Positions 57,470 to 64,000 of a stretch of DNA of 64,000 bases are shown here, one piece after another (positions within the stretch are counted from its first letter, which is position 1; each line of letters starts with the position of its first letter). Below the pieces are notes generated by a model. The model made no database searches. It was not told where the DNA came from and was given only the letters and a program-made list of their open reading frames with translations. Origin of the DNA: Deferribacter desulfuricans SSM1 (GTDB taxonomy: Bacteria > Chrysiogenota > Deferribacteres > Deferribacterales > Deferribacteraceae); assembly GCF_000010985.1 (NCBI RefSeq), contig NC_013939.1, forward strand, positions 124,001-188,000. The letters are read 5' to 3'. Made by a program: the position numbers and the translations under genes.

Positions 57470-57604
57470 ATGAAAAATTTATGGTATCTTTTTTCAGCTT
57501 ATATGGTTATATGGATATTGATTACTGGGTATTTGTTTAAGTTGAGCTCGAAAATAAAAGAATTAACACTTAAAATAGATTCTTTAGAAAATGAAATAAA
57601 GTAA
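57470..57604 (+). CDS. ccmD: CcmD-like small membrane protein
   Basis: A 44-residue protein: MKNLWYLFSAYMVIW begins a single membrane helix, followed by a charged amphipathic tail with KIDSLENEIK. CcmD subunits have just this shape and location after ccmC and help release haem-bound CcmE. A strong AGGAGG site lies four bases before the ATG. Identity is inferred from size, topology and place. Confidence 0.75.
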   Translation: MKNLWYLFSAYMVIWILITGYLFKLSSKIKELTLKIDSLENEIK

Positions 57605-58910: not shown

Positions 58911-59249
58911 TTATAAAGTGAAGGCGTTTTCTATGTGAGTGATTTTACCTTGATCGATTGAGATTACGTCAAAGCGTAATAAATTGTCATGTAGGTTTTT
59001 TACTGAAATAAAATAATTGGCGGTTTTTATGATTTTTTCTATTTTTCTGCTGTCTACAGATTCAAAACCGCTTCCAAAGTTTTTACTGCTCCTTGTTTTT
59101 ACTTCAACAAAGACTATCAAATTATCTTTTTTGGCAATTATATCAATTTCTCCAAACTTGGATTTGAAATTTTTTTCTATAATTTGATAACCTTTTTGTT
59201 GCAGAAACTTTGACGCTTTGTTTTCTCCAATTTTACCTAGATTAAACAT
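58911..59249 (-). CDS. YraN family protein (UPF0102), nuclease-like
   Basis: A 112-residue protein of the UPF0102 family, a predicted endonuclease-fold domain of uncertain function. GENKASKFLQQKGYQIIEKNF and FGEIDIIAKKDNLIVFVEVKTRSS are the family hallmarks, including the D-EVK nuclease-like residues. It overlaps rnhB by eight bases, a common pairing (rnhB-yraN). Confidence 0.9.
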   Translation of the reverse strand: MFNLGKIGENKASKFLQQKGYQIIEKNFKSKFGEIDIIAKKDNLIVFVEVKTRSSKNFGSGFESVDSRKIEKIIKTANYFISVKNLHDNLLRFDVISIDQGKITHIENAFTL

Positions 59250-59805
59250 AGTTTTTTAAAAAAGTTTTTCGATGTAGTTCACAAATACCATATTTTTTGA
59301 TTGCTTCTATATGTTCCTTTGTACCGTAACCTTTGTTTTTATACCAATTATATTCAGGGTATTTTAGATGAAGTTTTTTCATAAGATTATCTCTATAGAC
59401 TTTTGCAATTATTGATGCGGCTGCAATATTTTGAAATTTTGATTCCCCTTTATTAACAGGGTTTATTTTGCATCCGTAAAAGTTTTTTAACTTTACTGCA
59501 TCAATTGCTATAAAACTGTATTGATTATTTAATCTACTGATGGCTATGTGCATTGCCTGTTTTGTAGCTTGCAAAATATTTATTTTATCAATTACTTTAT
59601 TGCAAACAACTGCTACACTATAATCTAAAGCAATATCTTTTATATATTGTGCAAGTTTTTCCCTTTGTTTCTCTGATATTTTTTTAGAATCTATTATTCT
59701 TTCATCTTTAAAATCAGGTGGTAAAATGACAGCTGAAACAACAAGGGGGCCAGCGAAACACCCCCTACCTACTTCATCAAGACCTACATAGACCTGTTTT
59801 TGCAT
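59242..59805 (-). CDS. rnhB: ribonuclease HII
   Basis: Removes ribonucleotides from DNA. GLDEVGRGCFAGPLVVSAV holds the first two catalytic acids, IDSKKISEKQRE follows, and the Asp in AIDAVKL and a later Asp in KVYRDNLM complete the site. 187 residues is slightly short but normal. Its start overlaps hypB by 29 bases. Confidence 0.94.
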   Translation of the reverse strand: MQKQVYVGLDEVGRGCFAGPLVVSAVILPPDFKDERIIDSKKISEKQREKLAQYIKDIALDYSVAVVCNKVIDKINILQATKQAMHIAISRLNNQYSFIAIDAVKLKNFYGCKINPVNKGESKFQNIAAASIIAKVYRDNLMKKLHLKYPEYNWYKNKGYGTKEHIEAIKKYGICELHRKTFLKNYV

Positions 59806-60448
59806 GATACTTTTCTTCTATCCAGTTAACTACATCATTTATACCTGCTTTAGTTTTGCATGAGGTTTCAAAGATTTCTATATCTGGGTTTATCCCTTTA
59901 GCATAGTCTTTGCATTTTTCAACATCAAAATCTAACACTTGTAAAAGATCGGTTTTATTTATAATCATTGCACTACTTGCTCTGATTACAGTTGGATATT
60001 TTATCGGCTTGTCTTCCCCTTCTGTGGTGCTAATGAGTACTATTTTATAATCTTCTCCCAAATCAAAGGAAGCTGGACAAACTAAATTCCCCACATTTTC
60101 AATTATCAATATATCAAGCTCATCCAATGAAAAGGCGGATAAAGCTTTTTCGATACCGTTTGATTCTAGATGACATGCGCCATGGGTGTTTATCTGATAA
60201 CATGTTACTCCGACTTGTCTTATTCTTTCAGCGTCGTGTTCTGTAGCAAGATCCCCTTCTATTACCCCAACATTGTATTTTTCTTTTAAAATGGGGAGTA
60301 TATTTTCTAGTAGTGAAGTTTTTCCGCTACCAGGTGAAGATAGAAAGTTTAACACTAATACATTATTTTCTCTAAACAGCATACGTAGATATTTTGCTTT
60401 TTGCTCGTTTTTTGTTAAAATCTTAGTTTCAACTTTTATGTTTTTCAC
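59777..60448 (-). CDS. hypB: hydrogenase nickel incorporation GTPase HypB
   Basis: Metal-dependent GTPase that delivers nickel to [NiFe]-hydrogenase. The P-loop SSPGSGKTSLL lies at about residues 37-47, GDLATEHDAERI and NVGNLVCP follow, and NKTDLL is the base-recognition motif. 223 residues without the His-rich or CxxCGC N-terminus seen in some species. It overlaps hypA by one base. Other hyp genes and the hydrogenase are not in the window. Confidence 0.93.
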   Translation of the reverse strand: MKNIKVETKILTKNEQKAKYLRMLFRENNVLVLNFLSSPGSGKTSLLENILPILKEKYNVGVIEGDLATEHDAERIRQVGVTCYQINTHGACHLESNGIEKALSAFSLDELDILIIENVGNLVCPASFDLGEDYKIVLISTTEGEDKPIKYPTVIRASSAMIINKTDLLQVLDFDVEKCKDYAKGINPDIEIFETSCKTKAGINDVVNWIEEKYHAKTGLCRS

Positions 60449-60789
60449 TATTCCACCTCTATTTCCGTAATATTGAGCTCTTCACCGCTAATAATTTTTA
60501 CGTTTAAAGAGTTGCAGTTTTTGCAACTAAAAAAGTAATCATCGTAAGTACTGATATGCCCACAATCTAGACATTCTCCCTGTATGCTCACTTCATCAAC
60601 AACAAGGGTACTGTTTTCTGCAATAGTCCCTTCTTTTAATGCATCATAGGCAAATAATAAAGATTCTATATCAACAGCTGCTAATTTGCCAATTTTTACG
60701 AAAATCTTTTTGATTACTCGGGCATTGTTTTGTGTTGCGGTATCTATTGCTATATCTAAAATATTTTGTGCAATACTTGCTTCATGCAT
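60448..60789 (-). CDS. hypA: hydrogenase nickel incorporation protein HypA
   Basis: A 113-residue nickel metallochaperone. MHEASIAQNIL begins with the nickel-binding Met-His-Glu, which requires the ATG at 60789; the open frame continues six codons upstream but that would bury the Met-His. A zinc ribbon with CLDCG and CKNC lies near residues 76 and 95. TTGCAA-17-TATCAA ends only six bases before the ATG and no ribosome site is present, so the mRNA may be leaderless. First gene of hypAB-rnhB-yraN. Confidence 0.92.
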   Translation of the reverse strand: MHEASIAQNILDIAIDTATQNNARVIKKIFVKIGKLAAVDIESLLFAYDALKEGTIAENSTLVVDEVSIQGECLDCGHISTYDDYFFSCKNCNSLNVKIISGEELNITEIEVE

Positions 60790-60902
60790 GCTATTTTGAT
60801 AGCACAATGTCTTATTATTTGCAATATGAATAAAATTTTGATAATTTATTTTGACGAGTTTGCTTTATGCAGCTAAATGTTATTGAAAATAACAGTTTTA
60901 AG

Positions 60903-60984
60903 TATTCCAGATTGCTTTACTATTGCTTGTTATAACTGTATTAAGTGGCTGCTTTAAATAAGTAATAGCAATAAAGCAATTTAA
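60903..60984. repeat. degenerate palindromic repeat, copy 4
   Basis: AGATTGCTTTACTATTGCTTG and AAGTAATAGCAATAAAGCAATTT form an imperfect hairpin like the other copies, but its CG positions have changed to TA or CA. It lies in the 240-base gap between hypA and the TSUP gene. Before it, TGTTATT-3-AATAACA (60878-60894) is a small perfect inverted repeat. Nothing else is evident in the gap. Confidence 0.45.
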
Positions 60985-61031
60985 TTTAGAAGTAAATGTT
61001 TATAGTTTTTTAAACTTTTTTGGGGGAGTAG

Positions 61032-61769
61032 ATGTTAGAAATACTTCTTTTTATAGTTGGGGTAGTATCAGGTTTTATAAATGTAATGGCTGGTGGAGGC
61101 TCTTTTTTGACGATCCCTCTTTTGATTTTTATGGGTTTACCTCCAACAGTTGCAAATGGGACTAACAGATTAGGTGTTTTTTTGCAGTCACTTTTTGCTG
61201 TTAGAAAGTTTAATCAATACAAAGTGTTTAATCCAAAATTTGCTATTTTTGTGTCCATACCAGCTACAATTGGGGCAATTTTTGGGGCATATCTAGCGAC
61301 AATTATAAGTGATGCTGCTTTTAAAAAGTATCTGGCAATTATTATGATAGTAATAACTTTTATATCGATATTAAACCCAGTAAAAAATGTGCAATCTAAA
61401 GAGATTACTTATTCATTTAAAAGAAAAGTGGCTTTATTTATTGTATTCTTTTTTATAGGTATTTATGGAGGTTTTGTTCAGGCTGGAGTTGGATTTTTAA
61501 TACTTGCAGGTATAACTTTGACTGGCTTTAATCTTGTTGAAGGGAATGCCATAAAAACTTTTGTAATTATGGTTTTTACAATATTTGCACTTGTTATTTT
61601 TATTGCAAACGGGAAAGTGGATTTTATATTGGGGTTTATTCTTGGTGTAGGCAATATTATTGGTGCTCTTCTTGGGACAAAAGTTACTGTGGAAAAAGGG
61701 CATAATTTTATACAAAAAGTTGTAATTGTTTGTATTATAATTTTTGCAATTAAACTTTTGATTAGTTAA
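61032..61769 (+). CDS. TSUP family membrane permease (TauE/SafE-like)
   Basis: A 245-residue membrane protein with about eight helices. The N-terminal half has GFINVMAGGGSFLTIPLL and NGTNRLGVFLQS, the second half GGFVQAGVGFLILAG, the repeat signatures of the TSUP sulfite/organosulfonate permeases. The substrate is probably an anion such as sulfite or sulfonate; not proven. GGGGGAG lies before the ATG. It stands alone, ending in a hairpin shared with the next small gene. Confidence 0.85.
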   Translation: MLEILLFIVGVVSGFINVMAGGGSFLTIPLLIFMGLPPTVANGTNRLGVFLQSLFAVRKFNQYKVFNPKFAIFVSIPATIGAIFGAYLATIISDAAFKKYLAIIMIVITFISILNPVKNVQSKEITYSFKRKVALFIVFFFIGIYGGFVQAGVGFLILAGITLTGFNLVEGNAIKTFVIMVFTIFALVIFIANGKVDFILGFILGVGNIIGALLGTKVTVEKGHNFIQKVVIVCIIIFAIKLLIS

Positions 61770-61777
61770 TGAAAAGG

Positions 61778-61794
61778 GGGCTCATTATGAGCCC
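61778..61794. terminator. hairpin between TSUP gene and small membrane gene
   Basis: GGGCTCAT and ATGAGCCC are perfectly paired with one base between them. On the minus strand it is followed by CCTTTT, so it can end the 31-residue protein gene; on the plus strand there is no T-run. Confidence 0.6.
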
Positions 61795-61808: not shown

Positions 61809-61904
61809 TCAGAAAATAATAAGTTTTAAACCAATTGCTACTAACAATAAAAGAAAGATCATACCAGCGGCTTTTGATATAATCCCCTCAAGTTTCTGTT
61901 TCAT
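61809..61904 (-). CDS. 31-residue small membrane protein, unknown
   Basis: A short gene I do not recognise. Residues 1-14 are MKQKLEGIISKAAG, basic and amphipathic; residues 15-31 form one hydrophobic helix (MIFLLLLVAIGLKLIIF). Evidence for a real gene: a full GGAGGTGA ribosome site six bases before the ATG, a promoter and palindromic operator upstream, and a hairpin with a T-run just after the stop. It faces the TSUP gene. It might be a regulatory subunit of a membrane complex. Confidence 0.7.
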   Translation of the reverse strand: MKQKLEGIISKAAGMIFLLLLVAIGLKLIIF

Positions 61905-61926
61905 AGGTCACCTCCAATCAAAGTGT

Positions 61927-61978
61927 GGATGTATGATACATCCATGATACATATTAATTTTTTTTTAAATAAAAGCAA
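61927..61978 (-). promoter_or_regulatory. promoter and operator of the small membrane gene
   Basis: On the minus strand TTGCTT (61973-61978), 16 bases, then TAATAT (61951-61956). The palindrome GGATGTAT-G-ATACATCC (61927-61943) covers the predicted start, and TGATACAT occurs twice exactly 11 bases apart (61934 and 61945), one DNA turn. This looks like an operator for a repressor. The remaining 140 bases up to 62119 are AT-rich with no gene visible. Confidence 0.6.
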
Positions 61979-62119: not shown

Positions 62120-62383
62120 TTATTTTTTACTTATGGTTATAAATTTTATCTTATCAGGGTTACCAAAAATTTCTTTTAGTTTATTCATGATAAATTCATA
62201 GCTATTTTCGTCGTGATTTTTTGTACAATCTGAGCAGTCCTTATAACCGTTTGTAAATTTATAGTTTCCGCCACAGTCAGAGATAAAATATAATGGACAA
62301 AAACAAAATAAACAATTTTGATTTTCCAATTTATGACAGGGATAAAATTCACAAGATTTATTACTGAAATGTTTATAACTCAT
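62120..62383 (-). CDS. cysteine-rich small domain protein
   Basis: An 87-residue protein of the cysteine-rich small domain type (Pfam PF04071). SYKHFSNKSCEFYPCHK, NCLFCFCPLY, DCGGNYKFTNG and KDCSDC give nine cysteines, which likely bind metal or Fe-S. The domain occurs alone or fused to cobalamin-salvage CbiZ in archaea. GAGGA lies six bases before the ATG at 62383; the ATG at 62395 lacks one. It overlaps the kinase gene by 11 bases, so the two are probably co-expressed. Confidence 0.8.
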   Translation of the reverse strand: MSYKHFSNKSCEFYPCHKLENQNCLFCFCPLYFISDCGGNYKFTNGYKDCSDCTKNHDENSYEFIMNKLKEIFGNPDKIKFITISKK

Positions 62384-64000
62384 TTTTTTCCTCATCAGAT
62401 AATTTTTCTAAAATTGCATAAATATCATCTATATTTATAGGTTTTTTGAGAGCTGCTGCAAAACCGTAAATTTGATAATTTGAGAGTAAATCATCCTCAG
62501 AATAACCACTCATAACAACAGTTTTGACATCTATCTTATTTTTGATGAGATATTTTATTAAATCTCTTGCACCCATACCACCTTTAATTGTAACGTCAGC
62601 AAATATTATATCAAATTTTTCTGTTTTTAACATTTCGATTGCTTCTTCACCTGTTGCAACCGATTTTACACTACACCCTATTGATTTCATTAGAAGGTTC
62701 ATAGAATCTCTTATATAAAAATCGTCATCAACTACTAAAATACGCTTTCTTATCCGTCCTAAATGCATTATATTTTCATTTTGCGCTTTTTCATCTTGCT
62801 TTCTTGCCAATGGGAGATAAATAATAAATTCTGTTCCTTCACCTTTTATTGATTTAATACTTATATGGCCATTATGGTTTTTAATGATGTTGTATGTTAT
62901 AAAAAGTCCTAAACCACTTCCTCTTTCTTTTGTTGAAAAATATGGGTCGAAGATTTTATCTATAATACCTTCTTCAATTCCTGGGCCGTTATCTTTTACT
63001 CTTATAAGTGCATAGTCCCCTTTTGTTAATCCCATTAAGTTTTTACTTATGTATTTAGTTTCAATAGATAATGTGATTTTACCTTTATTTTTCATCGCTT
63101 CTTTAGCATTTATGAAAAGGTTTTGAAATACCTGAAAAATTTGTGTTTCATCCCCCTTGATATAAACATCATTTATCTTAGAGTTTATATCTAAAGTGAT
63201 ATTGCTTCCTGCAAGTGAAAGTTCTTTTGCAGTATTAATTACGTCTTTTAAATTTATTATATCATTTTTGATTATGTCGCCAGATGATAAAGTAAAAAGT
63301 TTGTTTGAAATATTTTTCCCCTGATCTACAATTTCGTCAATTTTATATATTACATCGATACTATCAGCACCAGATAGTTTTACCAAAGATATATAATTTT
63401 TTATTGATGCTAGTATATTGTTAAAGTCGTGGGCAATCCCTCCAGCTAACAAGCCAATTGATTCTAATTTGTTTTTTCTTAATTCTTCCATTTCTCGATG
63501 AACTTCATCAGTTATGTTGTAAAGAACAATTAAAAAACCTTCCCCTTTAGTATTAAAAAAGAGGGGAGCTTTGAAAATATTTAAAATATAAGTTTGATTT
63601 TTATTGTTGGTAAAATAGTACCTATTTGATAAATCTTGCAAATTTAATAGATTATATTTTTCACCGTTTGATTCCAGAATTAATTCATTGATTACGTTTG
63701 TATTGTTGTCAAAGCATGTGATATTATAAAATGCTTGATTAGCTAAATCTATTGAACCATCAAAGTTTATTAATGCAATCCCTTCTTTTACATTGTTGAT
63801 GACAGTTTCCAATTTTTCTTTTTCATATTGAATTTTTTTATTTAATTGCATAGTTACTGTATAGTCGTGTATTGCTATTAAGAAATTATCGGAAATTTTA
63901 TAACTTTTTATGACTGCATATTTTCTTAGGTCATTATTGTTTCTTAGTTTTGCTATATTGATAAAATCATTTGAAGTAGCTTCTATTTTGCTAATATAGT
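62373..64000 (-). CDS. hybrid sensor histidine kinase, 5' end beyond the window
   Basis: At least 542 residues in one open frame to the right edge; the first Met seen (63851) is not the true start, since the frame has no stop up to 64000 and the extra 49 codons look like the end of a PAS domain (ISDNFLIAIHDY). Then a PAS domain, HisKA with LLAGGIAHDFNNIL (phospho-His), HATPase with NLFINAKEAM, DNGPGIEEGI and GSGLGLFI, and a C-terminal receiver with VVDDDFY and IIFADVTIKGG. Typical of hybrid kinases without membrane segments so far. The substrate regulator is not visible. Confidence 0.88.
   Translation of the reverse strand, partial: YISKIEATSNDFINIAKLRNNNDLRKYAVIKSYKISDNFLIAIHDYTVTMQLNKKIQYEKEKLETVINNVKEGIALINFDGSIDLANQAFYNITCFDNNTNVINELILESNGEKYNLLNLQDLSNRYYFTNNKNQTYILNIFKAPLFFNTKGEGFLIVLYNITDEVHREMEELRKNKLESIGLLAGGIAHDFNNILASIKNYISLVKLSGADSIDVIYKIDEIVDQGKNISNKLFTLSSGDIIKNDIINLKDVINTAKELSLAGSNITLDINSKINDVYIKGDETQIFQVFQNLFINAKEAMKNKGKITLSIETKYISKNLMGLTKGDYALIRVKDNGPGIEEGIIDKIFDPYFSTKERGSGLGLFITYNIIKNHNGHISIKSIKGEGTEFIIYLPLARKQDEKAQNENIMHLGRIRKRILVVDDDFYIRDSMNLLMKSIGCSVKSVATGEEAIEMLKTEKFDIIFADVTIKGGMGARDLIKYLIKNKIDVKTVVMSGYSEDDLLSNYQIYGFAAALKKPINIDDIYAILEKLSDEEKNEL

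Follow-up and report, generated by a model that had tools for sequence, protein, structure and literature searches.

A probable 31-codon gene for a predicted single-helix membrane protein in Deferribacter desulfuricans SSM1

Small membrane proteins with a single helix often work through interaction with other membrane proteins (PMC12719787), and the 47-residue MgrB inhibits the kinase PhoQ (PMC8404706). YohP (27 aa) and YncL (31 aa) from E. coli consist of one hydrophobic helix and few residues besides, and YohP is conserved in most γ-proteobacteria (PMC12719787). The membrane-associated type I toxins, including TisB, the Fst/Ldr family, and AapA1, are hydrophobic one-helix peptides of less than 60 residues; most of them, not all, display a positively charged C-terminal end, and the Fst/Ldr family preserves a conserved PXXXGC motif (PMC8309996).

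The 31-codon frame described here lies within a contiguous stretch of 64,000 bases (the window, contig C1, 124001-188000), where it reads on the minus strand from 61904 down to 61809, flanked by the plus-strand tauE gene, which ends at 61769, and by the minus-strand gene of a Cys-rich protein, which ends at 62120 (Table 1). The frame is chromosomal in the hot-vent bacterium Deferribacter desulfuricans SSM1. The genome comprises a chromosome of 2,234,389 bases and a plasmid of 308,544 bases, 2,542,933 bases in all (PMC13186404, Table 1 therein), and growth occurs between 40 and 70 °C, with an optimum of 60-65 °C (PMC13186404). A first-pass annotation had recognized the ATG frame without assigning a strand, together with a ribosome-binding site (RBS) upstream and a basic amphipathic start followed by a hydrophobic helix, and each of these elements is present. 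The peptide contains four Lys and one Glu residues, with a basic N-terminal part whose helical moment is moderate (0.38-0.49 for the 11-residue stretches beginning at residues 1-4), followed by a very hydrophobic stretch; its hydropathy score is 2.76. AlphaFold2, run on the single sequence, predicts one helix comprising residues 3-30 with a mean pLDDT of 90.3; such a confident one-helix model is expected for a peptide of this kind and proves no function.

Table 1. Coordinates and main attributes of the features at the small-frame locus (window positions unless another record is named).
Feature	Position	Strand	Evidence or remark
TauE/SafE family permease, 245 aa, convergent neighbour	61032..61769	+	PF01925, E 1.6e-41
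GC-rich 7-bp terminator-like hairpin, GGGCTCATAATGAGCCC	61778..61794	-	14 bases past the stop
31-codon frame, predicted small single-helix membrane protein, MKQKLEGIISKAAGMIFLLLLVAIGLKLIIF	61809..61904	-	Open reading frame; ATG start, TGA stop
Ribosome-binding site, GGAGGTGA	61908..61915	-	8 matching bases; six bases from the end of GGAGG to ATG
Possible second leader hairpin over the RBS, CACTTT/GAGGTG	61909..61925	-	Predicted pairing; no comparative support
Perfect palindrome, 9+1+9, TGGATGTATCATACATCCA	61926..61944	-	Probably a leader hairpin (or a weak terminator for the genes upstream)
Cys-rich small-domain protein, 91 aa, upstream neighbour	62120..62395	-	PF04071, E 1.3e-22
Hybrid histidine kinase (PAS, HisKA, HATPase, receiver), upstream	62373..64000, continues off the window	-	Domain matches
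PF04392 binding protein, beyond the kinase	L142:2098-3024		

The evidence for a coding function comes from shuffled sequences and from codon use. The 350-base gap was subjected to 20,000 dinucleotide shuffles. Among these, a frame of 20-60 aa combining an RBS of at least 7 matches with a hydropathy of at least 2.2 arose only twice, and none reached a hydropathy of at least 2.7 with such an RBS, a hydropathy of at least 2.7 without the RBS condition being attained in 174 shuffles; the test was designed after the frame had been seen, and the window comprises many gaps, so that these figures overstate the odds, which nevertheless stay strong. Across the window, 18 of the 499 frames of 20-60 aa display an RBS by a simple motif, and the 31-residue frame tops these 18 in hydropathy. 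Its codon score is 8.5 bits, higher than that of 72% of the 30-codon pieces cut from the long frames of the window, whose scores average 6.0 (sd 4.1); the synonymous component alone amounts to 3.4 bits, the corresponding average being 2.4. The remaining five reading frames at the locus score between -9.1 and 0.3. Because the RBS and the hydrophobic frame together beat the shuffles and the codon use fits that of the surrounding genes, 61809-61904 is probably a real small gene. Taken with the confident single-helix model, these observations support the original proposal that a small gene here encodes a membrane protein of one helix.

As to function, the leading reading, to which we give about even odds, is that the locus is a genuine, translated gene, found in one species so far, whose product is a one-helix inner-membrane protein acting as a regulator by docking on a larger membrane protein. 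The basic amphipathic start would probably stay in the cytoplasm (N-in), with one helix of about 18-20 residues spanning the membrane; the peptide would most likely dock on a larger membrane protein and tune the activity or stability of that protein, a docking role being proposed because there is no room for a catalytic site. Position alone marks the adjacent hybrid sensor kinase as a candidate partner, with the action of MgrB on PhoQ as a precedent, and the mRNA of the small gene would end at the hairpin downstream of the stop. In size, single hydrophobic helix, and scarcity of other residues the peptide resembles YohP and YncL (PMC12719787), a likeness of description, not of alignment; in contrast to YohP, the peptide has no detectable relatives. 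The likeness to MgrB is that of a small membrane protein, here with a hybrid kinase gene next but one; compared with MgrB (PMC8404706), the peptide is shorter, has hardly anything outside the helix, and matches no family, and its link to a kinase is one of adjacency.

A different role, that of a membrane peptide connected with stress or resembling a toxin, as the type I toxins or YohP do, which under stress would insert and lower the membrane potential and would otherwise be silenced by leader hairpins, is possible, although it fits less well than an interacting small membrane protein and we consider it unlikely. Length and a single hydrophobic helix do fit the class (PMC8309996, PMC12719787), and the structured mRNA leader is a possible likeness to the type I toxins described in PMC8309996, since a leader hairpin is predicted to cover the RBS. 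The predicted pairing probability of the six core bases of the RBS is 0.94-0.98 at 37 °C and 0.47-0.73 at 65 °C, and the palindrome, as RNA, forms a stem whose predicted stability extends to 70 °C. A long-distance pairing of the RBS with bases beyond the terminator was discounted: these bases are located downstream of the T-run of the hairpin, and the pairing is lost in the shorter transcript. Against a toxin, the charges are found mainly at the N-terminal end and the C-terminal end reads LKLIIF, with Lys 27 inside the predicted helix, whereas most type I toxins listed in PMC8309996 are charged at the C-terminal end; the peptide has no Pro or Cys, and therefore no PXXXGC motif. In addition, (i) no Rfam family matches in or near the locus, the Rfam matches in the window being four tRNAs and nothing else, (ii) the peptide has no match in Pfam, NCBIfam, or PADLOC, and (iii) it occurs as a single genomic copy. 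As to an antisense RNA gene, Rfam and the promoter scan give no clear indication, the promoter hits in the region not exceeding those of shuffles.

Turning from role to existence, it is rather improbable that there is no protein gene at all, the frame having arisen by chance in a convergent gap, perhaps inside a small RNA or a 3' tail belonging to the upstream genes; the hairpin would then be a shared terminator. The 31-residue frame is not conserved, the T-run after the hairpin is weak, and no convincing promoter was found, which also counts against the docking-regulator reading: the promoter scan lists none on the minus strand upstream of the frame, and the best score there, 8/12, is attained in 500 of 500 shuffles. 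The first-pass annotation had described a separately regulated gene with a promoter and a palindromic operator, a view that finds no support. The palindrome itself is real and perfect, and the scan classes it as terminator-like, but the operator role does not follow: arms of 9 bases turn up in 93 of 2000 shuffled versions of the AT-rich gap. A role as the operator of a regulon was rejected because a search allowing up to 2 mismatches finds no second genomic copy, and because the 13-base core, with up to 1 mismatch allowed, is no commoner (6 places per strand) than the reversed control (8 places). A leader hairpin explains the palindrome as well as an operator would, and so does a weak terminator for the genes upstream. 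The hairpin after the stop had likewise been reported with a T-run; it is real and correctly oriented, but the T-run amounts to just four Ts (TTTT), which makes a weak terminator. It is followed by CCTTTTC on the minus strand and by AATCGAAATG, without a T-run, on the plus strand; because the T-rich side lies downstream on the minus strand, the hairpin is oriented like the small gene and opposite to tauE, and serves the direction of the former better. The absence of a T-run on the tauE side, together with the shuffle test and the codon score, argues against a chance frame.

Relatives of the peptide were sought widely. It has one copy in its own genome. At E up to 1, no relative was found in 59 genomes, a set that contains the host, the sister species, and another 43 genomes from the order; the four matches besides its own all lie inside long frames of 262-1091 aa. 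Similarly, no relative was found among 384 genomes, host included (E up to 0.3), where six matches besides its own comprise four in frames of 216-829 aa, one of these with an internal TGA, one in a 64-aa stop-to-stop frame without Met, and one with an internal TAG; 98 genomes of one further phylum returned just the long-frame match already seen, the three genome sets overlapping in members. Phages and plasmids gave zero matches (E up to 10), no family of Pfam, NCBIfam, PHROGs, or PADLOC matched (E up to 10), and no match was found among PDB sequences; a length of 31 residues limits the sensitivity of such searches, and the absence of a relative means that none is close. Back-translated N-terminal patterns occurred in 82 stretches of genome contigs, 80 of which were listed as loci and translated, and none of the frames of less than 70 aa at those 80 loci, judged by eye, combined the basic-then-hydrophobic form with an RBS; 13 stretches in viral contigs were also unlike the peptide in form. 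These scans had no positive control, the record of the window itself being absent, and relatives with an altered N-terminal end would escape them. One viral contig (L157, from 4240 onward) carries behind GGAGGTGG an 89-aa frame that starts MKQKLEG and resembles a filamentous-phage major coat precursor; the shared start is no evidence of kinship, as it is imposed by the search pattern.

Lack of conservation in related genomes had been put forward as the finding that would refute the gene, and the frame was indeed found neither in the sister species nor in any of the other 43 genomes from the order. This outcome cannot separate noise from a lineage-specific gene, because the sister species also lacks the adjoining genes; nevertheless, with no relative, evolutionary proof of coding is lacking, which counts against the docking-regulator reading. 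The best distant matches are to first or inner helices of long frames, for example to residues close to the beginning of an open frame of 829 aa (G218; 59% over 22 residues, E 0.017), and the locus sits at a synteny break, as would be expected if the frame were what remains of a longer membrane protein since lost, namely its N-terminal signal anchor. Any basic-then-hydrophobic peptide, however, yields such matches, and both the terminator-like hairpin within 14 bases of the stop and the tauE gene directly beyond it speak against such a remnant, an origin that we regard as improbable.

The neighbourhood was compared with the sister genome (G001), the sole other genome of the genus compared. The tauE genes are 89% identical, and DNA similarity covers 59025-60852 and 61032-61757 and ends there; the intervening stretch of about 180 bases between hypA and tauE (60853-61031) is missing from the sister genome, in which the two matching blocks directly adjoin. 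Downstream of tauE the sister genome displays different DNA, in which no similar small frame was found. The Cys-rich gene has no match in that genome, and the region of the kinase and the Cys-rich gene finds just 66% over 289 bases, located elsewhere. The binding-protein, kinase, and Cys-rich genes form a one-strand group (L142:1-3024 continuing into window positions 62120-64000), beyond which lies a SIR2 gene. In the sister genome the SIR2 gene sits on another contig, with no relatives of note of the kinase, the binding protein, or the small frame beside it (best kinase match E 0.016), this being the one place where the PF04392 binding protein was sought. The group seems to be absent as a whole from the sister genome, together with the small frame. 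Because the adjacent gene group is missing there too, the absence of the frame is weak evidence against coding, and its position adjoining this same-strand group, with which it is missing, was counted in favour of a gene. Conversely, the gap of 215 bases between the frame and the upstream Cys-rich gene is long for a single operon and counts against the docking-regulator reading.

No similar small frame besides its own was found at the tauE loci of 20 of the 37 matches listed (L006-L025, own included), nor in 15 zf-like loci other than its own (L027-L041), and the same 15 loci contain no relative of the kinase. Matches of the gap DNA in relatives are short and mostly AT-rich, and were rejected as chance. 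One tauE relative appears broken (G010:C1:2221681-2222410), with two overlapping matches, one of them with 6 internal stops. Within the window, a second small hydrophobic frame of 44 aa, MKNLWYLFSAYMVIWILITGYLFKLSSKIKELTLKIDSLENEIK, is located at 57470-57604 on the plus strand behind a strong RBS; it resembles a CcmD-type protein, but Pfam gives sub-threshold matches only, the best being LapA_dom (E 0.0036). A further proposal, in which the peptide would complete a sensory module specific to the lineage, together with the PF04392 protein, the hybrid kinase, and the Cys-rich protein, gating the kinase in the membrane while the RBS hairpin adjusts its output to temperature across the growth range of 40-70 °C, is very doubtful, and would, if true, provide a new small-protein regulator without a known family.

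Reading a sequence by itself can thus spot a short gene through its RBS and hydrophobic frame, while promoter and operator calls made by eye in AT-rich DNA are unreliable. A limited literature search found no small-protein survey linked to the phylum Deferribacterota. The peptide of D. desulfuricans is an orphan of a well-known kind, the small membrane proteins, and, if translated, it would add one more orphan to a large class that annotation tends to miss.
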